DNA of 64,000 nucleotides from Pseudomonas costantinii (GTDB lineage Bacteria; Pseudomonadota; Gammaproteobacteria; Pseudomonadales; Pseudomonadaceae), in contig NZ_MDDR01000035.1 in NCBI RefSeq assembly GCF_001870435.1, positions 186,001 through 250,000 of the forward strand, written 5' to 3'. The notes beneath the pieces are model-generated. The model searched no databases, was not told the origin of the DNA, and saw nothing but the letters and a program-made list of their open reading frames with translations. The position numbers and the translations under genes are program-made. Numbering within the stretch: the stretch's first letter is position 1; every line of letters begins with the position of its first letter. This document shows positions 40,552-57,489 of the stretch, piece by piece.

Positions 40552-41032
40552 TGGGAATTCCGAACAGCAGCTTATAGATTTGAGGGGTTGAGACGCTGGC
40601 TAGCCAGCTTGAGAGCTGCTTGGTGGTCTTAAGCATCTCAGGCGGTATCGAGGCTTTGGTGGCATTCGGCCAACGAGTCACGAGACCTGTGAACACATCA
40701 CCGTCTACGCCTGGTTTCTTCACTACCAACTTGGCTGATACCGCAAGGTTCAGTCCTTGAAACGTCGAGGCGGTGTACTCCTGAACCCGGCGCTCCAGAT
40801 CAATCTTCAGCACAGGCGAGTCTCGGAGCACGCTGTCTATGGCAGAGGCAGTGTTTCGGGATGAAAGCGCACTGCTGCTTGCCGGGTTCCAAACGATGGG
40901 GAGCACCAGCAAAAGCTTTGGAAGGTCAACAGGGTGATCTGCTGACTCGTATTCGTTTATGAAGTACGCAAGAAGGAAGCAGGCCAAGGAGGTGTTGTGG
41001 ATCAAATGACGATCCATGAAAGGCGCGCTCAT
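40535..41032 (-). CDS. ABC-three-component system middle component
   Basis: A 165-residue protein between the effector and the ATPase. The first part MDRHLIHNTSLACFLLAYFI resembles middle-component families (MC, DUF6521-like), where an early Asn-rich helix is followed by a LPKLLLVLPIVWNP strand. It has no catalytic motif. It probably bridges effector and ATPase. It overlaps the upstream effector gene by four bases (ATGA, 41029-41032) and the ATPase gene by 17. Subfamily assignment (MC3 or other) is uncertain. The call leans on gene order as well as sequence. Confidence 0.75.
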   Translation of the reverse strand: MSAPFMDRHLIHNTSLACFLLAYFINEYESADHPVDLPKLLLVLPIVWNPASSSALSSRNTASAIDSVLRDSPVLKIDLERRVQEYTASTFQGLNLAVSAKLVVKKPGVDGDVFTGLVTRWPNATKASIPPEMLKTTKQLSSWLASVSTPQIYKLLFGIPNEIRN

Positions 41033-42222
41033 TGATCACCCTCCGGGTCTTTGTGCCAGTGAATGGGGTGCTCTATGCCGTCGCCCCCATTCGCCTGGTG
41101 GTGATAGGTGCCCATAAACAGGTATCTGAATTTAGATTTGACGCGACCTATCTCCAGCTCGAAGGTGTGTGGAGTGGATGTCAGTTGGTAAACGGATAAG
41201 AAATCCTGTGCGTTGAAATCCTCTGGATCCTTATTTTCCTGTACGCACCGCGCGGCCTGGTTGGCCTTCCACTTGTCGCACAACTCCTCCTCAACCGCAC
41301 TCAAATCGCTGGGCAAAATTCTGTTTAGCCTGAGCAGGCGGGCACGTTCGGAGTATGCAGCCCAATAGTGGCCAAGCTCTTCTTGGAGAAGCTTAGGTCG
41401 CAGGTTTATGTTTTCGAGCTGTTCGATAAACGCAGGCTTAATCTCAGGGTACTCGTCTATCAGCGCTTTGAACTCAGTATCGGCCTGGGCCAACGGCTTC
41501 CAATAATCCTCTAGAAATTTTTCAATCAGCATGTGCTTCCGATTGAAAAATGGTTTTGCGGTTGTCCAGTAGGGTGTGCCTTTTTTCCAAGCTGTCTGGC
41601 ATTCGTTAAACAGCTGACCCATTAGGCCTTCATATACCAGATGCTGGCTGTCCTCCATTCCTTCTGGAAACTGCAGGGCGGCGTAAATCGCATCCTTTAG
41701 CGTCTGATCATTCATGCTGTCCGCGACATGAAAGCGCGATATCACGTATGTGAGATCGGCATCGGTATACGTCATAACCTCAGCGGCTATTTCCCCAGCC
41801 ACACCCGACATCTTGCTGGCATGATCGCGCAAAGCTTTGACCGCCGCAGCGACTGCTGAAGGTGTGTCCGCCTTTGAGAGCGTGCTGACTAGTGCTTTGT
41901 CCGGTACCGTTCGATTGGTCACAAGCACGAACTCAATAGAGTTGTACTTGCTACTGGCATCAGCCAGCTTTTTGAGCCAATTACGCAACGTATTCCAGAC
42001 GTTCTTACTGCTGTCCTGCAGGGAGTATTTTTTGCCGGTGGTTAGCTTGTTCTGCTCCCAAATAGTGGTTGTGCCGTTGGCACCCGGGATCTGCTCTTCC
42101 ACATCGTCCGCAGTTTCGATACCGAAGTACGTGCCAGGATTAGTGCTGTGAAAAATCCGGTGTAGCGCTCGCTCATATTGGTAGCCGAAACCTGCCGCGC
42201 TTGCACTCGCGTTGCTAGTCAT
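41029..42222 (-). CDS. ABC-three-component effector with nuclease-like N-terminus
   Basis: A 397-residue protein. The N-terminal about 100 residues resemble the Cap4/Mrr-like restriction-endonuclease fold: GFGYQYERAL (11-20), an acidic strand FGIETADDVEE (E36, D39, D40), and WEQNKLTTGK (E56-Q57-N58-K59, matching the QxK/ExK catalytic pattern), then SLQDSSKNVWNTLRNWLKKL. The C-terminal part (about residues 230-380) looks like the ABC-3C C-terminal domain that contacts the rest of the system. GAGAAGGAAC precedes the ATG. It is the first gene of the three-gene operon, after a 402-bp gap. The nuclease role is inferred from motif pattern. Confidence 0.75.
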   Translation of the reverse strand: MTSNASASAAGFGYQYERALHRIFHSTNPGTYFGIETADDVEEQIPGANGTTTIWEQNKLTTGKKYSLQDSSKNVWNTLRNWLKKLADASSKYNSIEFVLVTNRTVPDKALVSTLSKADTPSAVAAAVKALRDHASKMSGVAGEIAAEVMTYTDADLTYVISRFHVADSMNDQTLKDAIYAALQFPEGMEDSQHLVYEGLMGQLFNECQTAWKKGTPYWTTAKPFFNRKHMLIEKFLEDYWKPLAQADTEFKALIDEYPEIKPAFIEQLENINLRPKLLQEELGHYWAAYSERARLLRLNRILPSDLSAVEEELCDKWKANQAARCVQENKDPEDFNAQDFLSVYQLTSTPHTFELEIGRVKSKFRYLFMGTYHHQANGGDGIEHPIHWHKDPEGDQ

Positions 42223-42624: not shown

Positions 42625-44664
42625 TTAAGGCGCGCTCCAAAAGCCTTTTGGGATGACCAATGAGGCATCTCTGTTAGCCGGCCCGCCATGGATGTATGCC
42701 CGGGACAAACCTTGGTTGAAGGTTTCGCACCCGATCTCAACTTGAACGCAGCCGCTGCAGGAGCTGCCGACGTCTGTGCATACCGGATCAAAGGCACAAT
42801 TGAAGGCGAACATGCTGGCATCATCAAACCAGCGCTGCAGATAGTGCTGGAAAAGGGTCAACAAACCGCCTGCTGTATAGTTCTGCACGGACGAGACGTA
42901 CAGAATCACTGACAAGTCCATCGGCAGCAGGTATTCCTGAATGCTCTTGGAGTCGTAGCCTGTATGACGTCTCGCCGTGAGCATCAGGGAGTGGCTGATC
43001 GAATGCAGCAAGTGAAACGGAGTACCTTCTTCCGGATGGGCTTGAGGAATGGCTTTGGAAACCAAGCCAGGATGCATCGACAGAACAGGGTACTCGCTCA
43101 GTAGGTATGCGTGGCTCTTGGATCTGTCAGTGAAAATATCGTCGCCTGGAGATGCCAGATGCGCTGAGTCGACACACCATTGCAGCACCTTGCGAGGATC
43201 GAGCCTGATCCAGAGCGCCTCGGTCTTCGCTGCCATGGCATACACTGAGGTCTTGCCTCTCATTGACTCGTCGACACGGTCAGCAAAGGCGTTGAGCACT
43301 ACCGGCGGAACCCCGTCAGTGACGGATGGACTACTTTTTTCCCTCGAATACCCAAGCGTTGCCAAGACAACGCGCAAATCGGGGATGTGAGAGATCGATT
43401 CAATGCCATAGCGCGTTTGTACGCTGCTCCACTGCGCGAGCAGAGCGTCTCGCTCCATGGGATCGGCTGTTGCCGTAATGTGCTGCTGAAACGATATGCC
43501 AGTGACGTCATGCTGAAGAAATACTGCCTCAAGCGCCCGGCGATGCTGCATCAATCCGATTAGGGTCCTTTGATCGGGAACCAGCGTATGTACCTCCTTG
43601 AAGCAACCGGCCGCGCTCGCTAGTTTGGCATCGATCTCCCCAATTTCCTTTCTTGTGGATTCCAGCATCTCTGCGATGAAGGGATTGGTTTCGGCGAGCT
43701 GAGTGCACGCTAGGACGCTTTCCTGCTTTTTAGCTCGGCTCTCCAGAAGCGCTGCCTGTTCAGCAACGTCAGCAACATTTGAGGACAGCAAATGAGTGAG
43801 TTTTTCCTCAAGCTCCCGTCCGGTTATTTTTCGAAGCAGCGCAAGTGCAACACCTTCCGCGATGTCCTGTACCCGCCCGCCATCTGGTGACTGTTCCTCT
43901 TGGAGGCACTGCAGCAATTTCGCAATGAGTTTTCCTCGTTCCTCGCTCAAAGCAATGTACTGAGTGCTCTGAGCGTAAAAGGACTCCCCGCTGGTTAGCG
44001 GTGTGCCCCGTTTGTTGATTTCTTGTTGATATCGGTCGTCGCAAGCAGGACAGGTTTCCTGGAGCGAACCTGCAAGCTTGTCGTTGGTTTCGACATCAAA
44101 AAAGGAGGAGTGAATGAACGAGCCAGTGTCTCTATAACCGATATTTTTGTTGCGCCTTGCCGAATGGTGAATATAGATTGGGCTGTCATGGCCGCACCTA
44201 TGCACAGCCACATATGGAATCTGGATCATCTCCCCAGGGCAACCTGAACGCTTGCACGAGATATAGCTTCTCCCGGCTCGGTTTTTGATCCTTGATTCGA
44301 TCTTGGCAAGCGCCTGGTCTTCGGTTAACCAGGACTCGTGAAAATCGATCACCTTGCATATCTTGCAGGTGAGCATCAGCGGCGCTGGCGTGACCGAGAT
44401 CTCGGACGGCGATTGAATCTCAAGGCGCTTCTTTTCGGCAGCTGTCATAAAAGCGGGATCGACAGCCCCACCTAACCTGACCCAGTCGTTGACGAAGTTA
44501 AGTACGGCTTCGCGCAGTTGCTCTTTGTCTACACCCTCCAGCGCTGAGCCATTGCTGAGGACACCCGCGACGCGGCCATAGGCTTGATTTCGTAATCGTG
44601 TGTAGGCGCCAGGGAGAAACGACTCCCGGAAAAGACGGCTTCGGCTTACATATTCCTTTTCCAT
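42625..44664 (-). CDS. DrmB-like DUF1998 zinc protein (DISARM-type)
   Basis: A 679-residue protein. The N-terminal third has zinc-ribbon-like cysteines: CKICKVIDFHESW (about residue 98), CKRSGCPGEM (about 136), HRCGHDSPIYIHH (about 154) and CPACDDRYQQ (about 203). A coiled coil occupies about 225-350. The C-terminus is a DUF1998 (MZB) domain: LLHSISHSLMLTARRHTGYDSKSIQEY, SSVQNYTAGGLL, and a cysteine cluster CTDVGSSCSGCVQVEIGCETFN ending LSRAYIHGG. DUF1998 next to a DrmA-type helicase is the hallmark of the DISARM core. It starts 10 bases after the helicase gene. No methyltransferase gene and no phospholipase-D gene (drmC) is in the neighbourhood. Confidence 0.8.
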   Translation of the reverse strand: MEKEYVSRSRLFRESFLPGAYTRLRNQAYGRVAGVLSNGSALEGVDKEQLREAVLNFVNDWVRLGGAVDPAFMTAAEKKRLEIQSPSEISVTPAPLMLTCKICKVIDFHESWLTEDQALAKIESRIKNRAGRSYISCKRSGCPGEMIQIPYVAVHRCGHDSPIYIHHSARRNKNIGYRDTGSFIHSSFFDVETNDKLAGSLQETCPACDDRYQQEINKRGTPLTSGESFYAQSTQYIALSEERGKLIAKLLQCLQEEQSPDGGRVQDIAEGVALALLRKITGRELEEKLTHLLSSNVADVAEQAALLESRAKKQESVLACTQLAETNPFIAEMLESTRKEIGEIDAKLASAAGCFKEVHTLVPDQRTLIGLMQHRRALEAVFLQHDVTGISFQQHITATADPMERDALLAQWSSVQTRYGIESISHIPDLRVVLATLGYSREKSSPSVTDGVPPVVLNAFADRVDESMRGKTSVYAMAAKTEALWIRLDPRKVLQWCVDSAHLASPGDDIFTDRSKSHAYLLSEYPVLSMHPGLVSKAIPQAHPEEGTPFHLLHSISHSLMLTARRHTGYDSKSIQEYLLPMDLSVILYVSSVQNYTAGGLLTLFQHYLQRWFDDASMFAFNCAFDPVCTDVGSSCSGCVQVEIGCETFNQGLSRAYIHGGPANRDASLVIPKGFWSAP

Positions 44665-44674
44665 ATTCGTATCC

Positions 44675-47600
44675 TTACCTGGCCAATGCCATTAGAACTT
44701 GGTCGGCTGAACCGTTAACCGGTTTAATCAAAATCTGATTTTCGATATCCCGAAATGAGCGGAAGGGGGCGTAACCAAAAATGTCCCCCAAAGCTTCACT
44801 CAGCGTTTGATCATTTTTGTTGCCCGGCCAGTTTTCCAGTTGGAAAAACGCGTTGTCGATACGCTCTTTCAGAGCGGCATTGAATCCTAAGATCACCCGT
44901 TGATCGAATCGAGGTTGCAGCGCTGTTGGAATGCGAAGTGAGTTGATGGCTACGTTCTTGATTTGCTCTGCGACTACCTTGCCATTGCTCTCACGCAGCA
45001 AGGAGACCAGTGGTCGAACGTAGTTCGAGATATCCGATCCCCACGGTTGTTGGCGTGCCCAGTTCAGGATGACCGATGAGAGAATCCCTGGCAGCGTGCG
45101 ATCAATGATGTTGGGTGCAAAACGGTTAATTGGAACCGAGTCGACAAGACGATCCAAGAAGGTGTGGTAGTCGCCGAAGTTCATGAAAACACCCGACTCG
45201 AACAGCTGGTGCGATGAGAGCACGCAGAACACAATCCCGGGGTGTACACGCCCGCTGCGTGCAGATGCTTGAATGTATTCAGCCGTAGATTTTGGCCACC
45301 CGGCCATGATCATGAAGTTCAGCTCAGCGATATCGACCCCGTGTGACACAACGCTGGTGGCAATGATGTGTCGGCAGGTATCGTCCGGGGATTTCGTCTC
45401 AACGTGGCGAATCGCATCGAGGATCATATCCAGACGGGTCTCTCCATCGAGCAAGCGGGCGTTGCGCTCGGCCCCCGTCTTATTGTTGACCTCTTCCATG
45501 TAGCGCATGATTTCCGTGATGTTGCGCTTGCTGTTCGCGTACACCAGATCAGTGTTCAGATTCTTCTCAACGTATTGCAGGGCATCGCTGGCCTGCGCAG
45601 CGGTGAGTCCAATCTGGGAAAGCAATGAAGCATCACCGGCGGCAAGGCGGGCTCGCCATTGATCAACCTGATCCAGAAATCTTGAGCTGATTTCAGCCAC
45701 CGCCTGCATCGCAATTCTTCCTCGGCCAATGGGAAGAATGCCAGCGAACCACCGACGAATCAGTGGCATTTCGGTTTCGCTGTCTCGCACTTTGCGGGCG
45801 TAAAAAGATTCGCCCTGATTGACTCCTGGTGCCGGAAATCTCACCGCCTGTTGCAGGTACAGGTGATGGATATGGTCTTCGAAATCTTTGATGGTTGCCG
45901 TGGCTGCCAGCACCTTAGGGGCTCGGCCTTGATGGCTGATCTGAAGATTACTCAGCAACGTCTCATAGTGGGCGTCGAAATTCCCAAGTGACTCCCTCAG
46001 CAAATGCAATTCGTCTTGCACGAGGAGTGCGAAGCCCGGATCTTTCATCGGCGCTACTGCAACTACTTTAAGCTCGCTTGTTCGGGTGTTATTGCCGCAT
46101 TGCACCGCTTCCCAAACGTCGTTTTTCAGAACCATTCGACGGTGCTCGCATGCGGTTTTTTGTGTGAAACCATGCTCGGGGCAATAGTAGCGTGCTCCAC
46201 CGAAATAGTTCACGAAGCGCTTGTTGTGGCCAATGACAGCTAGCTTATCCACGGTACCGACGAGCACCGATGGCAGGTACCGATAGCATTCCTCATCTGA
46301 TACGTAGATGCCAATTTCGCCCCGAATTCCTTCGCCGTGATTGCCTGCATCGGCTTGCACGTTCGACCAACAATCCTGGTTGCTGCACACGTGCTTGATA
46401 CGTGCTCTGGTGAGGTCTTTCTGGATGCCTATGGAGCCAACTGAACCACAGTAGGGGCAGTCACTGATGAACTGGTAGGTCTTAAGCCGATCTTCGCTTA
46501 TAGCAGGCAGGAAGCCTTTCTGAACGTTCTCGCCAAAGTTGCTGCTAATGCTGTTGGGTGTTCCTTCACCAGTGTAGTAGCCGATCGTGAACGGCCATCC
46601 GCCGAGGTCTTCACGCTGGCGGATCTTGTTCGTCTGTGCCAGCACATACGAGAGTCGTTGGAATTGCTGTACCGACAACATGCGCAGGGGAAAGCGCATC
46701 CATGCGGTTGTGCCGTGATCCCGCCCTTTGAGCCTTCCCAATAACATCGCCATGCTGATGATGCCGAGATACGCTTCCGTTTTACCGCCGCCGGTTGCAA
46801 ACCACAGTACATCTGCTGTCTCCATGCTCCCTCGCAGTTCTGCGACAGGGGCATGGCGCTCAAAGATCGAGCGTATCTGGGTCAGAATGAATCCAAGCTG
46901 AAACAGGTGCCAGCCTGTAAATTTCTTACCCTGCATTTTGATGGCGCCCGCCATGGCCTCATTCATCCACTGGAAACACTGACGCACATCGTCGTTATCT
47001 CGCAGCAGGCTTACACCATCTCGGATTCTGTTGATTTCAAATTGGAATGAATCCCTGTCTTTCATCGCAATATCGCGATCAGCCATGAGCCCTGCAGACT
47101 CTAAAGACTGGATGCGGGTCGCCCAGAGCCCTAGGTACTGCTCTTGAGCACTAAGAAAACTGTCGCAAACGATTAAGGGATCGCGCGCGAGAAGCTCATA
47201 GTCTGGAGCGTGGGTCATGCCGACATCGCCCGGGCGTGGCGCATCCACCCGCGCTTGAGCTGAAGTAGGCATCCCGTCAGTCATGAACTCATTGTGGTCG
47301 AGATGGATAACTCCGCAGCTGACCCCGTAGCCAGGCAAACCGTCATCATCTCTGTAGCGATAATCTTCAGGTTGCAAGCGGTGAGGAACTTTGTGGCTGG
47401 TTCCTGCCACCAGTTTTGCTACCAATCGAGCATCGAGCAGGTAGGGGAACTCCACGCCAAAAGCACGCGCATGCGCAGTGGTCGTCTGGTTCTCCAGAAA
47501 CAGCTCCAGCAGAAAGCGGCCTTCCATATTCGCTCCGAATGCGCTGGGAGCTGGGCGCAAGCGACCGCGTACATTGACCTCATAGCTCAGAATTTCATTT

Positions 47601-48235
47601 GGATCGGAGATGATCTGCTCGTACACCACCCGGTTCAGTCCAGGTTGATCGGCTAAAGCAGCTGCACTCCATTCAAAATTTAATCGGGCGCCTCCGTTTG
47701 GATTCAAACGACAGCGTCGCATTATCCGCGGATCGTCCAACCAGCGACGTTTTTCATTGTCTAGGGTGGCGGTTACCGTCGCTTTTGCGGATATCCACTC
47801 GTTAGGTTTTGCGGGATCAAACGCCAGCGTGATTCCAGAAAAGCAGACTGTGTAACGTTTGAACGTCACAGAGATGGTTTGGCTCTTCCGTGGATCGGTA
47901 CCATCGAGCATGATGTCGCGAGCCATGCTGCTCACGTCGGGAATGTACCGGTGAACGACGTCAAACTGGCCGTTCAGCTCGCATTCGACAAAACCTTCGC
48001 CATCTGGAGACACCAGAAGCACGATTCCTACCGAGTTAGGTGGCTGTGGCCCTGTGTAGTCCACGTCCGGTGATGGGCCAATACAACCCACCAGGCTGAG
48101 CCGGTTAGGCTCGGTGCCGTCATACAGTTTGCCTTCAGGGGGTAATACGTCTGCATCCTTGTCGCTGAGCCGCAAGCGCATTTCGCTGAGAAATGCGGCT
48201 GTCAGTCCCATCTCTTCTCGATAATTGAGCGTCAT
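44675..48235 (-). CDS. DrmA-like SF2 helicase (DISARM-type)
   Basis: An 1186-residue helicase. A long N-terminal domain (about 1-440) has no motif I know. Then come motif I FATGGGKTEAYLG (about 479), motif II VQDELHLL (DELH, about 739), motif III AATAT (about 776) and motif VI QASARSGR (about 988). An inserted zinc-binding region lies around 590-620 (CPYCGS...CSNQDCW). The GGGKTEA P-loop and C-terminal helicase block match DrmA of DISARM, thought to load on or translocate along invading DNA with DrmB. It starts nine bases after the upstream 927-residue protein gene, so it is in the same operon. Confidence 0.82.
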   Translation of the reverse strand: MTLNYREEMGLTAAFLSEMRLRLSDKDADVLPPEGKLYDGTEPNRLSLVGCIGPSPDVDYTGPQPPNSVGIVLLVSPDGEGFVECELNGQFDVVHRYIPDVSSMARDIMLDGTDPRKSQTISVTFKRYTVCFSGITLAFDPAKPNEWISAKATVTATLDNEKRRWLDDPRIMRRCRLNPNGGARLNFEWSAAALADQPGLNRVVYEQIISDPNEILSYEVNVRGRLRPAPSAFGANMEGRFLLELFLENQTTTAHARAFGVEFPYLLDARLVAKLVAGTSHKVPHRLQPEDYRYRDDDGLPGYGVSCGVIHLDHNEFMTDGMPTSAQARVDAPRPGDVGMTHAPDYELLARDPLIVCDSFLSAQEQYLGLWATRIQSLESAGLMADRDIAMKDRDSFQFEINRIRDGVSLLRDNDDVRQCFQWMNEAMAGAIKMQGKKFTGWHLFQLGFILTQIRSIFERHAPVAELRGSMETADVLWFATGGGKTEAYLGIISMAMLLGRLKGRDHGTTAWMRFPLRMLSVQQFQRLSYVLAQTNKIRQREDLGGWPFTIGYYTGEGTPNSISSNFGENVQKGFLPAISEDRLKTYQFISDCPYCGSVGSIGIQKDLTRARIKHVCSNQDCWSNVQADAGNHGEGIRGEIGIYVSDEECYRYLPSVLVGTVDKLAVIGHNKRFVNYFGGARYYCPEHGFTQKTACEHRRMVLKNDVWEAVQCGNNTRTSELKVVAVAPMKDPGFALLVQDELHLLRESLGNFDAHYETLLSNLQISHQGRAPKVLAATATIKDFEDHIHHLYLQQAVRFPAPGVNQGESFYARKVRDSETEMPLIRRWFAGILPIGRGRIAMQAVAEISSRFLDQVDQWRARLAAGDASLLSQIGLTAAQASDALQYVEKNLNTDLVYANSKRNITEIMRYMEEVNNKTGAERNARLLDGETRLDMILDAIRHVETKSPDDTCRHIIATSVVSHGVDIAELNFMIMAGWPKSTAEYIQASARSGRVHPGIVFCVLSSHQLFESGVFMNFGDYHTFLDRLVDSVPINRFAPNIIDRTLPGILSSVILNWARQQPWGSDISNYVRPLVSLLRESNGKVVAEQIKNVAINSLRIPTALQPRFDQRVILGFNAALKERIDNAFFQLENWPGNKNDQTLSEALGDIFGYAPFRSFRDIENQILIKPVNGSADQVLMALAR

Positions 48236-48244
48236 GGATCGTCC

Positions 48245-51028
48245 TTAAGATTGTGTGGTTTCCAGATGTTTACCGGCATGGTGGATCACAATAAGTTTGT
48301 CCTCATCATCCCAGTCAAAATGGATGCGTAAGGTGCGCGAGGGATCGCGTGCGTTGCCCAGGCAAAAGTGTCTGTTGATATTGGCAGGCTTGCCTTTGTA
48401 TTTGCGGTTATCGGAATACTGTCCCATCGTCACGCTGGACATCTTGGGATGAAAGTCGATGCTTTCCTGAGTGAAGTGTTCAAGGACGTCGTGCAGGCGA
48501 TCGGTCTTGTCCCGGTAATGCTCGTAAAGCTTGGTGGCCATGAGCGACAGGCACGCCCGAAACTTGGCAGTGTCCCTGTAGACCGAGTCACGCATGGACT
48601 TGAGCGCAGGGATTGTTAGATAGATTCGCTGTGGGTGCAGTGTAAGGATGCTGTTCACGACCTCCGACAACCCCTCGTCCTTCACCGCAACGGCTTGAGT
48701 AACCGGCGACCGGATCGACCTCACGGTGGCGATTTCAATCATGTCGTCAAAGGTATGGCCGTCTAATGTGAGCGTGCCAATGGTGATGGTGGTGGCGCCT
48801 TTACTTCGATCCAAAAGCGCTTTTCTAAGCTGTTTTCCAACCTGCTGATGCGCGCTGCGCACCTGCTCGATAGCATTGGAAATATAGACAGCTGCATTCT
48901 CCGGCTGATTGACGTTTGCAAGGCGCGCGAACACCAAGACGGCGGCACGATCGCGGGGGCCGTACACGTTATGTCTGTACCAGTTCCAAACGGTAGCGTC
49001 GCTTACGCTGACATTTTCCTTCTTCAGATGAACTTGCACCTGAGAGGGCTTGAAACGAGCGGATACCGCATCCACGATTAACTTCCACCGATCGGCTGCA
49101 CGAATCATCTGCTGCATGCCCTCCGATAGCGCGACCATCTCGAAAAGCTTTTCTTGAGTCGCAAGGCGTTCATCGGTGTATTTGAGCAAGATGATCAAAT
49201 CACCTTCTTCGAGCTGCTCAGCAGGAGTTGGATGGATGTCATCATTCTTGAGCACCAGAACCGGCCGTTTCCTGCTCCATGGCAATGGAGCAGGCGATTC
49301 ATCTGTCGTTATCCAGACAAGTTCCGGGCTCAGAATCTCGCCGTCTTGGACGTCTGGGATGGGTTCTACCGGCTGCTCAAGCAAAAGCTCAAGCCAGTTA
49401 TCTAGCTTCATCTCCAACGGAATAACCGCGTGATGCTTGCGAGGTGGATACTCGCTGTGGTCGGGTTCGGTGACAATCGTGAGTACAAGAGGATGAGATA
49501 GTGTTTCTCCGTCTTTGCAGCCGCTCCTTCCCCAATCAAGCTGCCAGTGCTTTAATTTGTCCCCTGCACTTGCGCTTGCCGTCCCATGTTCCAGCCACCA
49601 GCGCTGGAGCAGTCGCTGAATCTGATCGGTTTCATAGGCATAGGCGAGTACCGTCATCTTCCTGCACGGAAGGGCGAGCCAGTGCTGACGTGTTGGCCAC
49701 AGCATGCCAGTGATGATGACCTCATCAAACATGCCGTGGTGTTGCCGGTAGGCTTTTACGCCATCCATCGCCGTGAGCTGAATGTTCTCGATCCACTCAG
49801 CATGTAGTGAGTCATCCAACCAGTTCCCTAACGCCAAAACCTCGTGTTGACTGCCACACAAGACTAGCGTTTTCACCCCATCTGTGCGGGCTTGAGCCAG
49901 GCGTCGCTTTAGCCATCCAGCCTTGCCCGATACCGATTTCATCAGCAACTCGTGTACGTCAGAAATCTGCTTGATGAGGAAGCGAGATGCCATGTCAGTT
50001 TCGCCGTACTGACATGTTCCTTTTTCTGCGAGCTCCAGCCAGCGATGAAAACACCGCACAGGAAACAGGCCGGGCCGGGTGGCTGCCTGAAGCACCCCTT
50101 CAAGGCGGGCAAGAGGAACGACCAACTCGTTTAGTCCACGAAACACTTTCCCGATGATGGTCAGCCGATCCTTCAGGACGGGATCTTTAGAGCGGTCAAG
50201 CTCCCGGCGCAGGTGAAAATAACGGTTGGCGATATTTAGGAGACTGGCATTTGCTGTTTCGTCGCTGATCAGTGCTTGCTGAAAGTTCGGATCAGTGGGT
50301 GTCGTAGATTCGATCATTGCCCTGTCTGAGAGGCGCATGATCCATAGGTGAGTGCGCGTTCGATTTGTCCGCATTTTGGCGATAGCCTCGCCATCGCCCA
50401 AGGACAGCAAAACGATCCGCGGTATGTGAGCAAAGCATTCCTCCAGCGCACTATCCACTGCCCACGCGTTATCGTTACCCCCACGCGTGCCATCCACCAC
50501 GATGACAACTGGGCGGCTTCCTCGGCTGATAAGGTCAGTAAGCTCCATTAAATCAGCAGATCCATCCACCACCAGAGTTTGGGAGGTGGTAAGGGTTTTA
50601 CGCTCTTTTAGATGTGCAGGGCGTAGGACTCGTGCATGCAGGGCAGCTACTCGCGAGAGATCTTGAGAACCTTGGCGAGGCCTGGAAACGAACACGATAT
50701 CTGGGCACTGTTCAACGTTTCCGGGATTGAGCCATGGAGCACGAATGCCGCCCTGAAGCGCATCCATCCGAATGCGGTGCAGGTAAACCATTAGTCGTGT
50801 GATGCCTTCCCCGCTCAGTACCGGCAACGCGAGAGCTACTGATTGCCCGTACTTCAACGCGCGCCCCGCCACAGCGAAGCTTGCGGCCTCCCCAATATCT
50901 GGGGGCGACAGGCCAAGGTTGGCCCAGGCGTCGGAGGAGGGCTGCAGCAGCTCTGCTGCGGGCACAGCCCCCCAGCTGGCCTGCATTTGAGTGATCCACT
51001 CGGCGCGGTTTGTGATTTCCGTGGCCAT
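48245..51028 (-). CDS. Unknown 927-residue protein of the DISARM-like operon
   Basis: A 927-residue soluble protein placed just upstream of the DrmA-like gene, where drmE sits in class 2 DISARM. I cannot confirm it is DrmE. The centre shows alternating strands and acidic ends that look like one or two degenerate P-loop/helicase-type Rossmann cores (CPDIVFVSRPRQGSQDL, SRPVVIVVDGTRGGNDN, VKTLVLCGSQHEVLALGNWL, FDEVIITGMLWPTRQHWL, RKMTVLAYAYETDQIQRLLQ), without a Walker A motif. About residues 640-830 are helical with a possible HTH (VSVSDATVWNWYRHNVYGPRD). The last 60 residues end TLRIHFDWDDEDKLIVIHHA, a small separate domain. It starts two bases after the 2152-residue protein gene. Confidence 0.75.
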   Translation of the reverse strand: MATEITNRAEWITQMQASWGAVPAAELLQPSSDAWANLGLSPPDIGEAASFAVAGRALKYGQSVALALPVLSGEGITRLMVYLHRIRMDALQGGIRAPWLNPGNVEQCPDIVFVSRPRQGSQDLSRVAALHARVLRPAHLKERKTLTTSQTLVVDGSADLMELTDLISRGSRPVVIVVDGTRGGNDNAWAVDSALEECFAHIPRIVLLSLGDGEAIAKMRTNRTRTHLWIMRLSDRAMIESTTPTDPNFQQALISDETANASLLNIANRYFHLRRELDRSKDPVLKDRLTIIGKVFRGLNELVVPLARLEGVLQAATRPGLFPVRCFHRWLELAEKGTCQYGETDMASRFLIKQISDVHELLMKSVSGKAGWLKRRLAQARTDGVKTLVLCGSQHEVLALGNWLDDSLHAEWIENIQLTAMDGVKAYRQHHGMFDEVIITGMLWPTRQHWLALPCRKMTVLAYAYETDQIQRLLQRWWLEHGTASASAGDKLKHWQLDWGRSGCKDGETLSHPLVLTIVTEPDHSEYPPRKHHAVIPLEMKLDNWLELLLEQPVEPIPDVQDGEILSPELVWITTDESPAPLPWSRKRPVLVLKNDDIHPTPAEQLEEGDLIILLKYTDERLATQEKLFEMVALSEGMQQMIRAADRWKLIVDAVSARFKPSQVQVHLKKENVSVSDATVWNWYRHNVYGPRDRAAVLVFARLANVNQPENAAVYISNAIEQVRSAHQQVGKQLRKALLDRSKGATTITIGTLTLDGHTFDDMIEIATVRSIRSPVTQAVAVKDEGLSEVVNSILTLHPQRIYLTIPALKSMRDSVYRDTAKFRACLSLMATKLYEHYRDKTDRLHDVLEHFTQESIDFHPKMSSVTMGQYSDNRKYKGKPANINRHFCLGNARDPSRTLRIHFDWDDEDKLIVIHHAGKHLETTQS

Positions 51029-51030
51029 GA

Positions 51031-54000
51031 TCAGGCTTTAGCTTCTTGCACGGATTTGGCCAGCAGAGCAGCCTTGATACTTTCCGGCACCTTGTAAAAA
51101 TTCTTCTTACTCTTCACTGGAGCGATCAGGCGCAGCCTAGACAGCCAGCGAAGCGCATTTTGTGGATTAACATCGGGGAAGACGTCCATGAGTTGAAGCG
51201 CAATATCGTCCTCATCGAATTTTTCTTCCTCGCATACCGCGCTCAAAACAGGCCGAGCCCAAGGAACAGCGCCAACGCCGGCCTTGATGAGAAATTCTTC
51301 CATACTTTTAGGCTTGGCTTGCAGCAGTGACTGATAACTTTGCCCGAAGGAGCTCACTCGCAACACATCAGGTTTTTTCTTTTTGGCTTCAAACAGCCTG
51401 TCCAGCGAGAAGTACCAACCCTGACTGAAGGCTTCAAGAGTCTTGACAGACGTTGAGGTGTTCTCAAGCTCAAGTTTGTTCAGAAGATGAGCGAGCGCTG
51501 TGTTCTTCCACACATCCAGCGCCACGAACGGCTGCATCGATTCACGTCCTGCGATCAGATCGGGATGACTTTCCCACTGCCAAAGAGCTTTTGGAGTCAT
51601 GAGAAAGATGACTCGGACTCGGCAGCGCTTGGGGTTGATGTTGAGCCGGGCCTCGTGTGCTATGTCAAGCAGATCCAGCGTGTGGCTGATGGGTTGGTCA
51701 CCTGTCAGCTCCACGAACAACATGATGTGTTTGGTAAGCGCCTGGACACCCAGAATCCCTTCGTTCAGTAACTTTTTGAAATCGCCCGCGGTCTCGATAC
51801 CAGTGTCTTTTTTGTGGGCTGGAAGATAGCGCCCATACTGATTGTTATTGAGGACAGGTTCTTCTTCTCCGATCGCAGGAAGCGACTCCACCATCCACGT
51901 GGGATTCAAACCAAGTGCTTCTGACCCCGTGAGGACGCCCACTGAGTAATTGGACGATTTTGCTGCAACGGTACTTTCTTGGTTTTTCTCGCTTTTCTCT
52001 TCGCTAATTAGCAGCTTTTCATCCCGCAAAGTTAGAGGAGACGGGCGCAGGGCTTTTTCGGGATAAGCATGGGCGGAGAGTGGATCGTTTTCATTGATCG
52101 CGTCGATGGCTTCGAGGAGTTTGTCCTCTACTTGCTTCTGCGGGCCTCCTACCAAGTTCATGATGTTGGCGTTGCGCAGGGAATATTCTTTGCCGCCCTC
52201 GTTGCGGCGCATGCATTGCAGAACACCCAAACCACACAACTCATCGAGAAACGCTTCAAACAACGCGACAGTCATTGGTTCGAAAATTTCCGGAGCCCAT
52301 TCTTCGACTATCGCCTTGGCTCGGCTCGGAGAGAAACTTCGCGTGCTTTGAGAGATCAAGCTGTAGGCAATCAGTTTGTATCGCAGGTCAAGGTTGAGAG
52401 TGATGTCAAAGCGATCACAGATCAGTTGGTTGATGTGGTGATCTCGGCGAATCTGTTCGATGTCATCCGTTGTGATAACAAGGCTGCCGATCTTGTTCTG
52501 ATGGCGGGCGCTCAAAGTTTGAATGAGTTCATGGCAAACGATGTGAATCAGCCCTGGGTGGCGATTGGTTTCCACCAGGATGCGGTTCATTAGCAGCGGC
52601 GTTTCGAACTCATAACCCAGATGCCCCAATGGCTCACGAATCAGCTGAAGAGCTTCGGTCGGCGTCATGATCGACACCTGGATCGCGCTTCCGAGCTGGT
52701 GCAGCGGGTAATTGGGCGCATCAGCGAAGCGGCGTACGTTTTCTAGGCCTGCGATGATCACCTTAAAGTGGCCATTGCTGTTATTAACCAACCCACTCAG
52801 CTCGCGGAAAATCCGGAAGCCGTTGGCGGCGTCCAAGCCAAGAATCGGATCAATCTCATCGAGGCACACCATAAACGCATCCGGACTTTCCCGGCCGAAA
52901 TACTCCTGCAAGGCTGCAACCTGCCCTGCGGTATCAAGCCCGTAAGTATCCTTGATCAGCTTGCTGGCTACCGCAGAGGAGTAAATGGTTTTCCATACCT
53001 TAGTCCGGTGTTTATCCAGCTCATTGCCGGACAAGTCGGCTCGGTCAAGGTTGCCATCCATCTGGTGGAGGAAGGCGTGGGATCGTTGCTCAGGATTGTG
53101 AAACCGACGCTGAGTTTCGTTGAGCAGCGTAGTCTTGCCCAGCTGCCTGCCGCCGAAGATCATAGCTGCGCCGTTGCGCATCGTGGTCAGCATTTTTATG
53201 TCATTTTCACGACCGTAACGCATCTCAGGTGGCGCCGGTTGCATCTGATTACCCGTGTACGGGTTGTAGTACGTCCAGGGTAGGCTCAGCTGCAAAAAGG
53301 TCTTCAGGCGAGAGGTGTCTTGGACGTTCAGACCGGCCAGAACAGCAAGCAAGACCGGGTCGGCGTGGAACAGCGTATGTCGCTCGCGTTTTGAGAGGCT
53401 TGCGAGGTCATTGCGCTCGTCGTTTGATAGGTCTCTGGCCGAAATCAGGATGGTTCGGTCATGCAAAAACTGCGTGTGCTCATTTAACAGCACACGTAGC
53501 TCGGCGACTGTCCATTCGCCAGTCGCGATCAGCACGTTGATCGCCTGCTCTTCAGATTTCTGGTTGAAAAAGACGATACCCCGGCCGGTCTCCTTTCGTC
53601 GTACAGACAAAGTGAGACGGCAAAACTTGTTATGCGCAGTGAACCCTGTCTTATGGGGCATTGTGCCGTCGAATGTTGGAGTAACCGCTTCCAGCCCTAA
53701 CGCATGCAGCACATGTACAAGTTGTTCATATGTCAGCCTGTCCAGGGTTTTGAGTCGCCCACGCAAACCTATGAGGTCTTCGATTGCCCGCTTGAAATAC
53801 GCCGGGAGGGGATCGAGTGATAATCCCTCGATCTGCTGCGCTGCCAGATATCGGGCTATCTCACGTGGGTTATGATTTTCGCTCAAGGCTGTAGACAGCT
53901 TCGGTTCTGCCCTCAGGAACAGTTGCAATAGCTCGGTACCGCGTTCCGGCTGGCCCGAGAGTGGATCACCAGTCTCAAGAGAATGCTTCAGGTGTCCCAA

Positions 54001-57000
54001 CATTTCTTCAGCAACGGTGGTGTCATGAGTCGCGAGCGCACTGTTGATCTGTTCCACCCAGTTAGCCGGCACCCAATCGACGCCTCGCCCTACCAAGGCC
54101 TGGGTCATCAGCGCGTCTAGTGCCTCTTGCAGTTCTTCTCTTTTGGCCGAAAATTTAGTGACAATGCTTGATTCCAGATAGTCAAGGTTGCCATGGATCT
54201 CGCTGAGATCATCCAGAATGCGAAGGCCATTGAGCTGATCCTGGAGGTGCTCAACCTCCCCACGCAGCTGATAGTGGCGTTCATCATCAATGAGTGAAGC
54301 CACGTTCGCGTTATCCAGCAGTCCTTTCATCTTCACGCTTCGAAGATTGCATTGGTGCACCTCTTCGGAGAACAGGCGCTTGATCCCATCAAGCGTTTCA
54401 CCAGCGGACTTACCAGTTTCGTCCTGATGGTGCAGCGTCAGAAGTTGTGCATGGCGGAAATTCTTGCGTGTCAGCGCCTGCTCCGCTAGAGACAGATCGT
54501 CCATGCCTTCCTCAAGCAGCGTACTCAATAGCTCTAGCTGCTGGTTGGCATCATGGGAGTTCTGGGTTGCCAGCCACTCGGTGGGCCACGCGAGCCAGCC
54601 GCTTACGCGAGCTGTTTCCCAGTTGAGGTCATCACGACTTTCAGCGGCTCTCGCGATATCGCGAAGGATCTTCTGAACAATCTTGAGTCCGGCTAGATGC
54701 TCAAGATCATCGGTGCGTTTCAGTCGCTCACTGACGTGGGTCAGGCCATTGGCGACCATTGTCAGGAGTCTGGGGGCGAACCTGTTAAGTTCGTCGTTGC
54801 GCTGGCCCTGCGGCGGATGACGCTCGATCCAGTCGTCAGCGATCTCAACTATCTCGTCGACCGTGCGCAGGAACCAGTTGCGAGCATTGCCTTCAATTTG
54901 CGGAGCGGCAGTACTCTCGTTCATGACTTTGAGAATTTCCGCGTGCATCAAGCGGTTTTGTTCCTCCTTGTCACGGTACTTTTCTGCGAAGGCGCGCACC
55001 TCAGCAAGTGCAGATGCGTCATCCTTGGCGATACTCTCGTACGCGAGGGCAAAGTCTTCGTGTTCGAGGCATTCCTTCATGGCTTTGCGGGCCGGAGCCC
55101 AGCCTGTCAGTTTGTTCTGTATACGGTCGTGCCACTCGACAACCCGCGCAGCCAGCTTGACACGCTGCGCTTTGTCGTTGCTGCTAGGCTGCGCCCTCAG
55201 GGTATCAATATCAAAGCGCAAATTATGACTGGAGAAGGCAACGACCTCTTCGATCAGGCGGACTATTGGGCCGTCGAAGTTGGTTGCCACCGCGGACAGC
55301 AGGCGCGGCGCATTCGTCATATGGCCGCAGAACAAGGCAGGCTGGAAGGCAGCCGCGAACACGAGATAGGGAACAACCCGTCCCCCGGGGCGCCGGTAGA
55401 TCCAAGTCTCGATGATTTCTGCGGAAAGCTGACTCAAGTTTTGCTGCACTCGCGTAACGCTCGCGGCATCGCCACGCCAAACATGCGTTCCTTGATACGC
55501 TGCTTGAACCAAAGGTAAGGATAGGAGCTCCCCGATGAGCCTCATCCTTCCAGCAACCTCCAAGGTCTTGCTGGCCAGCGGCATATGCCCTTGTTTGATC
55601 CAGAGCAGTGCTATGTTTTCCACCGCAATGGCGGGAACTGCGTCCATAGTTTGGGTGCAGATATCAAAACGTTCCCGTGCCTCAGACGGGGTCTTGAGGA
55701 ACTGAGAAACATTGATCCCTTCCTCTTCCAGCCCCTCTGCGATTACTTCCGTCGGCTCATCAGGCGGTAACAGGACGTCCACGATCTCAGTTTCTTGCAC
55801 GAGCTGGATATGAGGCGCTGGCTCAACTTGGGCCTCGGGTTCAGGCTCCGGGATGTCGATAGTTGTGGCGAGGATCTGCTGTTCAGAGGCCTCAGCTTCG
55901 GCATCGTCTGCACGCACGGCTTCATCTTCAACCGGCTGTGGCTCTCCGACGATAAAGGCTAGTGTAGCTGGGTCAGTCGGCTCGTCGGCTACAAGGGCGC
56001 CATTACCAGCCTCGACTTCTATGATCCGGCCGGCCCATGCCACAAACGCGGCTTTCGCGCTTGGGTGGTAGCCTTCGGTGGCCAGTGCGATTTCGTTAAT
56101 TTCAGGTAGAGAGTCCAGCGACAGGCCTGGCGGCAGTAAAAGGTTGTACCCTTCTTGCTCCGCGTCCTGATGCTGTCTATTACCTTTAACGCGTAATTCT
56201 TCCGCCTCAGTGATGCTATTGCGCAGGTCGTTTTTTTCGCGAAAGCTCGCCTTCAAAAGTTTTTCATTGAGCACCGCTAGGTCTGCACTGGCTGAGAGGC
56301 GAATGTCTTCTGCTGTTTTCAGCCGTGTCTGCAGCTCTTCAGAAACCGCCTGCCGCTCCTCGGTGACGTCAACGAGTAGCGTCTGAGGGACATCTTCCAT
56401 CAGCCGCTTATTGAAGTAATCGAGCCACGCTGACCTGAAGACTGTAAGGAATTCTTCGTCGTCGAACTCAATCAAAGACAGGCGGCGGCCGATGCTTTCC
56501 AGTACACCGATGCATTCGCCCAATATTTTACGAATGGCCTCTTCACCTAGCGAGTACTCTTGCTTGAGACGCGGAAGATTCGCAGTGATGAGTGCTTCAA
56601 TTTGCTCGGCGTAGTGAAGGTTGCTTGCGTCGGCCTGAGCCTTCTGGGCGATTCGGAAGAGTTCGCTGTAGAGATTAAAAAGGCTCAGGGGAGACGTATC
56701 TTCCGTGTTCGAGTCAGTCTTAGCTGGGGCAGGTTCTATCTTTTGCTCCTGAGATGCATCTGCCTCCTGCGCTTTTGCTGCCCGAGCATCCTTAAGCATC
56801 TCGGTGAAGTAGCCCATCAGCTCGGGTTGCTTAGTGAGAAAGAGTCCAAAAAGTTTGTAGCCAAACGGAGTCGCGCAAGCATGGGCGCCGTTTGCGAGAG
56901 CTTGTCTTGCGTCACTGTCCAATGCTTCCCATTGCTCCAGCCGATCCAGCAGCAGGCCAACCATCCCGGCAAGTTGAGGGTAATACCAGCGGCTTTTCAT

Positions 57001-57489
57001 GAACTCTGCTGTTAGGGGAGAGGTTTTTTTGAGGCTCTGCATCCAGGTAAGCCTAGGCTCTGCCATCTCATCTAGCGCTTGGCGGTCTTCCTCGGAAAAG
57101 GCATCGAATCTCTGAGCTGCGGCCCCGGTGGGATCAAACCATGAGGCTTCTGTTTTACTCAGTACAACCATTTCCCAGCTGCGAAATGCTGGCGAGGCTT
57201 TCGATTTCTTCTTCATGACCTGTTGCGCTATGTGCAGGTCGTTAATCAAAAGAAGCATTCGACCTGTAGGGAGAGGCATATAGTCCATCAGGCGCTGCCC
57301 TTCCTTGTGTTTGGCAGCCTCTGCGCGTCGCATGGCGCGAGTCATCCCGATCATTCGGTCGAGCACGGACGGGTCACGCACGCCTGTTTCAGGATTCAGC
57401 ATGGTTTGATCGGGGAAGCCAGGCCCATCAATCACAAACTGATCTATGAGGGAGTTGTCGATCTGAGCGTCGAAAATAGAGTTAGGCAT
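51031..57489 (-). CDS. Giant P-loop NTPase (STAND/AAA-like), first gene of the DISARM-like operon
   Basis: A 2152-residue protein. Residues 1 to about 1400 are mostly helical, with several coiled coils (for example RLKTAEDIRLSASADLAVLN) and an acidic Pro-rich linker (PEPEPEAQVEPAP, about 550). The NTPase domain follows YNPYTGNQMQPAPPEMRYGR: Walker A GGRQLGKTTLL (about 1446) and Walker B FMVCLDEIDPIL (about 1537-1548). A sensor-like segment IMTPTEALQLIREPLGHLGY and a winged helix (LDELCGLGVLQC) come next, as in STAND ATPases. A last domain (about 1880-2152) contains FVELTGDQPISH and ends in a winged-helix-like segment. It probably senses a trigger and controls the helicase module. The start is ATG 57487-57489 with a weak ribosome-binding site (GGAT). 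Confidence 0.8.
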   Translation of the reverse strand: MPNSIFDAQIDNSLIDQFVIDGPGFPDQTMLNPETGVRDPSVLDRMIGMTRAMRRAEAAKHKEGQRLMDYMPLPTGRMLLLINDLHIAQQVMKKKSKASPAFRSWEMVVLSKTEASWFDPTGAAAQRFDAFSEEDRQALDEMAEPRLTWMQSLKKTSPLTAEFMKSRWYYPQLAGMVGLLLDRLEQWEALDSDARQALANGAHACATPFGYKLFGLFLTKQPELMGYFTEMLKDARAAKAQEADASQEQKIEPAPAKTDSNTEDTSPLSLFNLYSELFRIAQKAQADASNLHYAEQIEALITANLPRLKQEYSLGEEAIRKILGECIGVLESIGRRLSLIEFDDEEFLTVFRSAWLDYFNKRLMEDVPQTLLVDVTEERQAVSEELQTRLKTAEDIRLSASADLAVLNEKLLKASFREKNDLRNSITEAEELRVKGNRQHQDAEQEGYNLLLPPGLSLDSLPEINEIALATEGYHPSAKAAFVAWAGRIIEVEAGNGALVADEPTDPATLAFIVGEPQPVEDEAVRADDAEAEASEQQILATTIDIPEPEPEAQVEPAPHIQLVQETEIVDVLLPPDEPTEVIAEGLEEEGINVSQFLKTPSEARERFDICTQTMDAVPAIAVENIALLWIKQGHMPLASKTLEVAGRMRLIGELLSLPLVQAAYQGTHVWRGDAASVTRVQQNLSQLSAEIIETWIYRRPGGRVVPYLVFAAAFQPALFCGHMTNAPRLLSAVATNFDGPIVRLIEEVVAFSSHNLRFDIDTLRAQPSSNDKAQRVKLAARVVEWHDRIQNKLTGWAPARKAMKECLEHEDFALAYESIAKDDASALAEVRAFAEKYRDKEEQNRLMHAEILKVMNESTAAPQIEGNARNWFLRTVDEIVEIADDWIERHPPQGQRNDELNRFAPRLLTMVANGLTHVSERLKRTDDLEHLAGLKIVQKILRDIARAAESRDDLNWETARVSGWLAWPTEWLATQNSHDANQQLELLSTLLEEGMDDLSLAEQALTRKNFRHAQLLTLHHQDETGKSAGETLDGIKRLFSEEVHQCNLRSVKMKGLLDNANVASLIDDERHYQLRGEVEHLQDQLNGLRILDDLSEIHGNLDYLESSIVTKFSAKREELQEALDALMTQALVGRGVDWVPANWVEQINSALATHDTTVAEEMLGHLKHSLETGDPLSGQPERGTELLQLFLRAEPKLSTALSENHNPREIARYLAAQQIEGLSLDPLPAYFKRAIEDLIGLRGRLKTLDRLTYEQLVHVLHALGLEAVTPTFDGTMPHKTGFTAHNKFCRLTLSVRRKETGRGIVFFNQKSEEQAINVLIATGEWTVAELRVLLNEHTQFLHDRTILISARDLSNDERNDLASLSKRERHTLFHADPVLLAVLAGLNVQDTSRLKTFLQLSLPWTYYNPYTGNQMQPAPPEMRYGRENDIKMLTTMRNGAAMIFGGRQLGKTTLLNETQRRFHNPEQRSHAFLHQMDGNLDRADLSGNELDKHRTKVWKTIYSSAVASKLIKDTYGLDTAGQVAALQEYFGRESPDAFMVCLDEIDPILGLDAANGFRIFRELSGLVNNSNGHFKVIIAGLENVRRFADAPNYPLHQLGSAIQVSIMTPTEALQLIREPLGHLGYEFETPLLMNRILVETNRHPGLIHIVCHELIQTLSARHQNKIGSLVITTDDIEQIRRDHHINQLICDRFDITLNLDLRYKLIAYSLISQSTRSFSPSRAKAIVEEWAPEIFEPMTVALFEAFLDELCGLGVLQCMRRNEGGKEYSLRNANIMNLVGGPQKQVEDKLLEAIDAINENDPLSAHAYPEKALRPSPLTLRDEKLLISEEKSEKNQESTVAAKSSNYSVGVLTGSEALGLNPTWMVESLPAIGEEEPVLNNNQYGRYLPAHKKDTGIETAGDFKKLLNEGILGVQALTKHIMLFVELTGDQPISHTLDLLDIAHEARLNINPKRCRVRVIFLMTPKALWQWESHPDLIAGRESMQPFVALDVWKNTALAHLLNKLELENTSTSVKTLEAFSQGWYFSLDRLFEAKKKKPDVLRVSSFGQSYQSLLQAKPKSMEEFLIKAGVGAVPWARPVLSAVCEEEKFDEDDIALQLMDVFPDVNPQNALRWLSRLRLIAPVKSKKNFYKVPESIKAALLAKSVQEAKA

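Follow-up and report, generated by a model that had tools for sequence, protein, structure and literature searches.

DISARM class 2 comprises drmE-drmA-drmB-drmC together with the methylase gene drmMII, as restated in excerpts of PMC9142583 and PMC10270631. For the Serratia system, the excerpt of PMC9142583 describes DrmAB as auto-inhibited and gated by a trigger loop; it prefers 5'-overhang DNA, on which it loads, and methylation dampens it. What DrmD and DrmE do is left there to future study. A natural derivative without a linked methylase makes it testable how DISARM discriminates self from non-self beyond methylation. Here, we describe an operon of four minus-strand genes within a stretch of 64,000 nucleotides from Pseudomonas costantinii (assembly GCF_001870435.1, contig NZ_MDDR01000035.1, positions 186,001-250,000), called the window throughout. 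With a probability of about 0.5, the operon is a class-2-like derivative of DISARM in which a giant ORC/STAND-type ATPase and a helicase-fold DrmE-like subunit control the DrmAB motor.

The first gene encodes the giant ATPase (2152 aa, 51031..57489, minus strand), which has orthologues in nine other loci. It is followed on the same strand by the genes for a DrmE-like protein (927 aa, 48245..51028), a DrmA-like superfamily 2 helicase (1186 aa, 44675..48235) and a DrmB-like zinc protein (679 aa, 42625..44664). All four open reading frames (ORFs) are intact, with gaps of 2, 9 and 10 bases going downstream from the giant, confirming the layout given in a preliminary description that was made from the sequence alone. 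The second protein had been listed there as unknown. Since its scores for a DrmE-family domain exceed the cut-offs of both NCBIfam and Pfam, the gene order reads giant-DrmE-DrmA-DrmB, and at least part of one gene that defines a DISARM class is there. A DrmA helicase (PADLOC) and drmE (by its DrmE-family domain) are found in the window operon, and the genes for the DrmE_C domain, DrmA and the DrmB-like protein are adjacent in the order of class 2. The operon differs from class 2 in having no linked methylase that could be found, in the giant placed in front, and in DrmA and DrmB scores far below the NCBIfam cut-offs. It was not filed as DISARM itself, as methylase and DrmC were not found in the window and the DrmA and DrmB cut-offs were not reached. 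No description of this gene set was found among the titles and abstract openings listed in searches of the open PMC literature, in line with the earlier view that it is not a named system.

Orthologues of the giant were collected at ten loci including the window, two of them from plasmids and seven from genome contigs. The plasmid search returned 24 records, two with long matches (proteins of 2190 and 2285 aa); locus L037 is the same plasmid as L004 and was counted once. The scan of genome contigs accepted a stretch only where two short peptide patterns matched exactly, which gave 57 stretches and 7 relatives, and it therefore undercounts. All four genes stand in the same order at six of the ten loci (window, L004, L009, L010, L011 and L012), so that the neighbourhood survey proposed earlier did find them recurring together. 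Recurrence of this ordered set in five other bacteria, at 26-53% identity, is beyond chance. In L004 drmA is split by an element with integrase-core domains; the L015 locus is disrupted, with inserted ORFs at the place where a scan of flanking genes found IS21-type domains. Compared with the other four-gene loci, the window proteins show 26-27% identity for the giant, 29-31% for the DrmE-like protein, 51-53% for DrmA and 43-44% for DrmB. The lower values of the giant and the DrmE-like protein are as expected if these formed a fast-changing sensing layer. The giant is rare: beyond matches to its ATPase region it was found in 0 of 94 other genomes in one survey and in 0 of 368 in another. At E ≤ 1e-20 it is present in full in 3 of 398 genomes (L010, L011 and the L004 plasmid), and one more match is a pPIWI-RE fusion (L038).

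A DrmC-like gene of the phospholipase D (PLD) type with an HKD-type motif follows drmB in three of the six four-gene loci (L004, L010 and L012), and PADLOC assigns DrmC in L004. L009 gave a short match only to the PLD gene (residues 10-56, E 7e-7) and none to the L010 PLD protein. With the L010 protein as tblastn query (E ≤ 0.01), neither L011 nor the window yielded a homologue of this gene. Because half of the four-gene loci possess the gene, its absence from the window is a variant: the statement that DrmC is missing holds for the window, but not as a property of the system.

The preliminary description had also reported that no methylase lies nearby. Indeed, the families PF00145, PF01555, PF02384 and PF07669 had no match on the entire contig that contains the window (C35, 334 kb). 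The same four families were searched in the genomes of the window, L004 and L009 to L014, eight in all (L003 and L015 were left out). None lay within 100 kb of the operon on its contig in any of the eight, three of these contigs being shorter than 51 kb or so. Six of the contigs had no match at all, and the matches on the other two were ∼112 kb (weak PF02384, L009 genome) and ∼269 kb (PF01555, L010 genome) away. Pfam scans of 48 chosen flanking ORFs at the ten loci likewise showed no methylase among the families listed, which in one of the scans were 25 of 28. The proposed recurrence without drmC does not hold, given the PLD gene in 3/6 loci; a linked methylase was found in 0/8 genomes. The operon could also be an ordinary DISARM that has its methylase gene at a distant place in the genome: all eight genomes match one or more of the four families, and the window genome has PF00145 matches on five contigs (C7, C19, C20, C24 and C60). 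However, no methylase is linked in any of the eight, and no family is common to all, as the window genome has PF00145 only and the Collimonas genome (L009) lacks it. We consider this explanation improbable. Three of the five contigs (C19, C20 and C60) share one PF00145 match pattern, at the same positions in C20 and C60 and reversed in C19; this points to assembly ends that are repeated or duplicated.

A missing linked methylase alone is not unique to the giant-containing operons, because drmE-drmA-drmB-like sets of Haloplanus (L030) and Rubrobacter (L027) also list none nearby and have no giant. This listing is weak, since the PLSDB gene tables of both loci are incomplete, and their DrmB was read by position. 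In L027, UPF0020 matches a neighbour of 645 aa below its threshold. A methylase is near the set in Streptomyces L028 and in Allocoleopsis L054. All four loci were included in a DrmA tree of 13 rows, which left out the split DrmA of L004 and was rooted at the midpoint only. The giant-linked DrmAs, five in number, group in a single clade (100/100) on a long stem. They fall inside a group of ten rows (100/100); the three rows outside it are two more DrmAs and that of DrmD-linked class 1. Nearest to them, with moderate support (83/93), are L027 and L028, both with DrmE_C in a neighbouring protein (below the cut-off in L027, above it in L028). Next outward at 94/94 follow L030, which has an annotated DrmE neighbour, and L054, whose 826-aa neighbour is unmatched by the DrmE-like profile; the sigma-linked L029 is outermost in the ten-row group. 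The inner branching order is unsure because of long branches and an uneven residue composition in six rows.

The assignment of DrmA is strong. The protein matched PADLOC DrmA (8e-104), Pfam DEAD and Helicase_C, and NCBIfam DrmA (5e-106), where its 355.8 bits do not reach the equivalog cut-off of 950. The helicase motifs named earlier were all located (FATGGGKTEA, read in the translation; DELH at 741; QASARSGR at 989). The DrmB assignment is weaker by the same kind of comparison: PADLOC DrmB matched at 1.8e-27 over residues 422-665, covering only the C-terminal third, and NCBIfam DrmB at 1.6e-15 with 57 bits (cut-off 240). CxxC motifs occur at 100, 205 and 636. The protein had been described as a DrmB-type DUF1998 protein; DUF1998 is unconfirmed by Pfam, as no match was obtained at E ≤ 0.05.

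Evidence for the DrmE-family domain comes from NF038316 (91.5 bits, cut-off 80) and from Pfam PF24957, DrmE_C, at residues 589-739 (48812..49264, minus strand; 36.7 bits, cut-off 27). PADLOC DrmE models matched weakly (E 6e-4); DrmE was not found in excerpts of the PADLOC 2021 main text (PMC8565338). When compared profile to profile, three DrmE-type proteins from plasmid operons matched with a probability of 97.6 and E 2.7e-12 over only 163 columns, and alignment with other DrmE proteins was limited to the C-terminal domain. The DrmE-like proteins of L003 and L004 also pass the PF24957 cut-off. In the phylum DrmE_C is rare, being found in one of 398 genomes, the window's own. The N-terminal part (residues ∼6-475, 49604..51013, minus strand) is predicted to fold into two RecA-like domains of RecQ/SF2 type, in a model of low confidence (pLDDT 66.4). 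RecQ-type helicases were its nearest fold matches (Z 13-14), with a root-mean-square deviation (rmsd) of 5.0-5.8 over 282-288 residues in some rows and 13-18 in many others. No GKS/T was found at the Walker A position in alignments and pattern searches across nine DrmE-like orthologues; the few pattern matches elsewhere were GKS 433 and DEED 897 in L013 and GKS 784 in L012. With low confidence, the N-terminus may thus represent a helicase fold without recognisable helicase motifs. Residues ∼787-923 (48260..48670, minus strand) form a C-terminal domain common to the PADLOC HEC-07 and NsnC proteins (2.4e-16 and 6e-4), the match covering the last ∼125 residues. The domain also ends proteins encoded on plasmids of Delftia, Acidovorax, Klebsiella and Pseudomonas, and it has a relative on each of two IMG/VR viral contigs (L050:1715-2125 and L051:10001-10144). 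A RelE-like fold of the domain, suspected by eye, is not claimed, as the sequence search was empty. PDB sequence searches returned no match for the DrmE-like protein or for its C-terminal domain.

The giant was correctly recognised earlier as a P-loop protein of 2152 residues. A motif search located a single Walker A (GGRQLGKT, 1446) and a single Walker B (LDEID, 1543). Both lie in an ORC/Cdc6/STAND-like AAA+ core with a winged-helix-like region (residues ∼1418-1800, 52090..53238, minus strand), supported by conservation, fold matches and motifs. This core is the best-conserved part, with 39-48% identity per 100 residues between window and other giants vs 14-35% elsewhere. The P-loop lysine K1452 is invariant among eight aligned giants; the L013 giant deviates from the pattern GGxxxGKT. 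Neither PADLOC nor NCBIfam had a model that matched the giant at E ≤ 0.01, and Pfam gave AAA_14 and AAA_22 only, both sub-threshold. Its structure model covered residues 953-2152 with low confidence (pLDDT 62.8). In this model the ATPase region resembles ORC/Cdc6, MuB, TnsC and Avs3 (Z ∼10.8-12.9), with ORC/Cdc6 ranking first and Avs3 at Z 10.8; rmsd values were 14-18 in many rows, 7.1 over 233 residues for 9gjw_A and 6.3 over 217 for Avs3. Fold searches with the models of the giant and the DrmE-like protein were each dominated by one domain, so that other parts were barely probed. A PDB sequence search with the C-terminal 1200 residues of the giant gave no match, and the giant was not found in phages or IMG/VR.

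These features raise the question of what keeps DrmAB from turning on its own cell. In the proposed mechanism, DrmAB would be a DNA-loading motor and the DrmE-like subunit a helicase-fold adaptor lacking helicase motifs. The giant would be an ATP-driven switch of the ORC/STAND type that recognises infection or invading DNA, self DNA being unmarked by a linked methylase. Its ATP-driven state, coupled through the DrmE-like subunit, would then license DrmAB. We infer that the proteins form a complex with antiviral function, in which the giant acts as gate or sensor, DrmAB acts on invader DNA, and the PLD protein, where present, serves as an optional nuclease. A linked methylase cannot be the check here. 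Licensing by the giant is the most economical model, and the earlier suggestion, in which the giant would take over the sensing role of methylation, is plausible.

Several observations weigh against this reading of the operon. Among the other four-gene loci the identity gap is smaller (giant 55-75%, DrmE-like 52-70%, DrmA 69-76%, DrmB 68-76%), and faster divergence of the first two proteins could reflect weaker constraint. Both structure models are of low confidence, with pTM 0.31 for the giant and 0.34 for the DrmE-like protein. The NF038316 cut-off is passed by no relative's DrmE-like protein; six of seven relative genomes match below it, the match in the L013 genome falling in a different part of the profile. 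Some contigs in the methylase search are short (L012 19 kb, L013 51 kb, L014 28 kb), and the L011 giant begins 0.7 kb from a contig end. Finally, L003, L013 and L014 lack DrmAB and keep only the giant and the DrmE-like gene. Searches for a DrmA elsewhere were negative for two of these genomes, both metagenome-assembled (one weak partial helicase match, E 1.5e-4), and for the replicon of the third. Because these three loci keep the pair alone, DrmAB may not be the sole output. Giant and DrmE-like protein might instead be a complete two-gene system, with the C-terminal HEC-07/NsnC domain as possible effector and DrmAB(C) loosely added; the mobility of this domain, which recurs in other proteins, and the failure to find a full DrmA in those two genomes or on that replicon agree with this idea. 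It appears unlikely to us, however, as all four genes keep their tight order at six loci and the DrmAs of the five four-gene loci in the tree make up one clade. Furthermore, the L014 giant is split between two ORFs, and both L013 and L014 come from metagenome-assembled genomes, so that decay or incompleteness may account for some of the two-gene loci. An E2/ThiF/JAB gene adjoins the two-gene locus of Burkholderia arboris (L003:26759-32146).

The window is part of contig C35 in a genome assembly of 7.24 Mb with a contamination estimate of 9.18%. From ∼38 kb onward its GC content is 0.49-0.56, vs mostly 0.56-0.62 before, and a Lamassu-type set LmuA-LmuC-LmuB (38569-42222, PADLOC) lies directly downstream of the operon. 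A lower-GC stretch with both sets fits an island. MrfAB has a role in DNA repair, and the operon might accordingly be a repair operon of this kind, or a relic, rather than immunity. DrmAB is homologous to the YprA/MrfAB helicases (excerpt of PMC12458937), the sets are rare, and genes are lost or broken at four of the ten loci. This explanation is highly improbable in view of the patchy distribution (0/94 and 0/368 beyond the ATPase region), the island position beside Lamassu and the intact motifs. In Collimonas, three ORFs upstream of the giant (L009:3893-7430) are similar in size to the window's Lamassu/ABC-three-component set; the domains DUF3732, MC3 and CTD7 were each found once in the flanking set that includes these ORFs. 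Scanning the region upstream of the giant for promoters and terminators found none (shuffles averaged 0.9 and 1.0), no tRNA was found in the window, and megablast against plasmids gave no match for the window operon or the L010 operon.

The giant profile also matched proteins of 1927-3406 aa in other settings, a fragment of 476 aa and shorter ATPases of 643-1061 aa. The match reaches far past the ATPase in Brasilonema L007 (profile 732-2148), Azospirillum L005 (758-1820), Salinibacter L008 and Thiodictyon L006; the remaining members match mainly the ATPase region. Giants are fused to a pPIWI-RE nuclease in single proteins of ∼3100-3400 aa in Microvirga (L045:1231-11415), Bradyrhizobium (L046:2032-11334) and L038 (1841-11101), and in Azospirillum L005 pPIWI-RE and giant are split over two genes. 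On the Brasilonema plasmid (L007:10459-17328), sigma-70 regions 1.2, 2, 3 and 4 are fused N-terminally to the giant, followed by a PLD-SNF2 helicase. Partner genes without clear Pfam domains (377-895 aa) were seen in L006, L008, L026 and L031, and a partner gene of 529 aa in L049. The fusions to pPIWI-RE at three loci and to sigma-70 regions at one suggest a shared module joined to different effectors. We tentatively propose, at somewhat less than even odds, that the giant belongs to a shared control module of prokaryotic immunity, a ∼2000-residue ORC/STAND-like ATPase linked by operon or fusion to unrelated effectors (DrmE-DrmA-DrmB(-PLD), pPIWI-RE, a sigma-70 factor with a PLD-SNF2 helicase, and several unknown partners), which would recognise infection without DNA methylation. 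If so, one kind of sensor would link DISARM-like motors, pPIWI-RE nucleases and sigma-factor-linked helicases. To our knowledge such a module is unnamed. In excerpts of the 2013 pPIWI-RE paper (PMC3702460), the terms 'ATPase' and 'AAA' were not found. Next to the giant of an Agrobacterium Ti plasmid, ThiF and patatin-like genes are encoded (L049:14171-17547).

Comparison with other named systems gave partial likenesses. The window operon shares a YprA-type helicase core with ARMADA, Druantia and Dpd. ARMADA, as described in the excerpt of PMC12458937, has a BrxHII-like helicase, a PglX-like methylase and a YprA typically with a fused C-terminal nuclease; it was rejected, as neither a BrxHII-like gene nor a fused nuclease is among the four genes and no linked methylase was found. 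By the same excerpt, ARMADA, BRIGADE and TALON differ from the operon in gene content. Druantia differs in that DruE has a fused DUF1998, whereas helicase and DrmB are separate genes in the window; the DruE match is marginal (E 0.0088). The giant resembles Avs and other STAND NTPases in its large size and, by a low-confidence model, in its ATPase region, Avs3 being among the fold matches. However, this ATPase lies about two-thirds along the giant, whereas the matched region of Avs3 is 260-492 of 2028, and the giant has no recognised effector domain; with no match to an Avs family model (PADLOC, E ≤ 0.01), Avs was set aside. pPIWI-RE systems are related through the fused giants of L038, L045 and L046, but Pfam gave no match to pPIWI-RE in the four window genes. 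A DISARM-like arrangement with homologues of ShdA (RmuC domain), also reported from Pseudomonas, differs from this operon (excerpt of PMC10270631).

Sigma-70-like proteins were also seen beside DrmA-like genes. One is encoded directly before the DrmA-like gene in Roseomonas (L029:11293-12414) and in Streptomyces fungicidicus (L026:21504-25325), and another lies near a DrmA/DUF1998/cytosine-methylase region of Burkholderia aenigmatica (L055:16049-17242).

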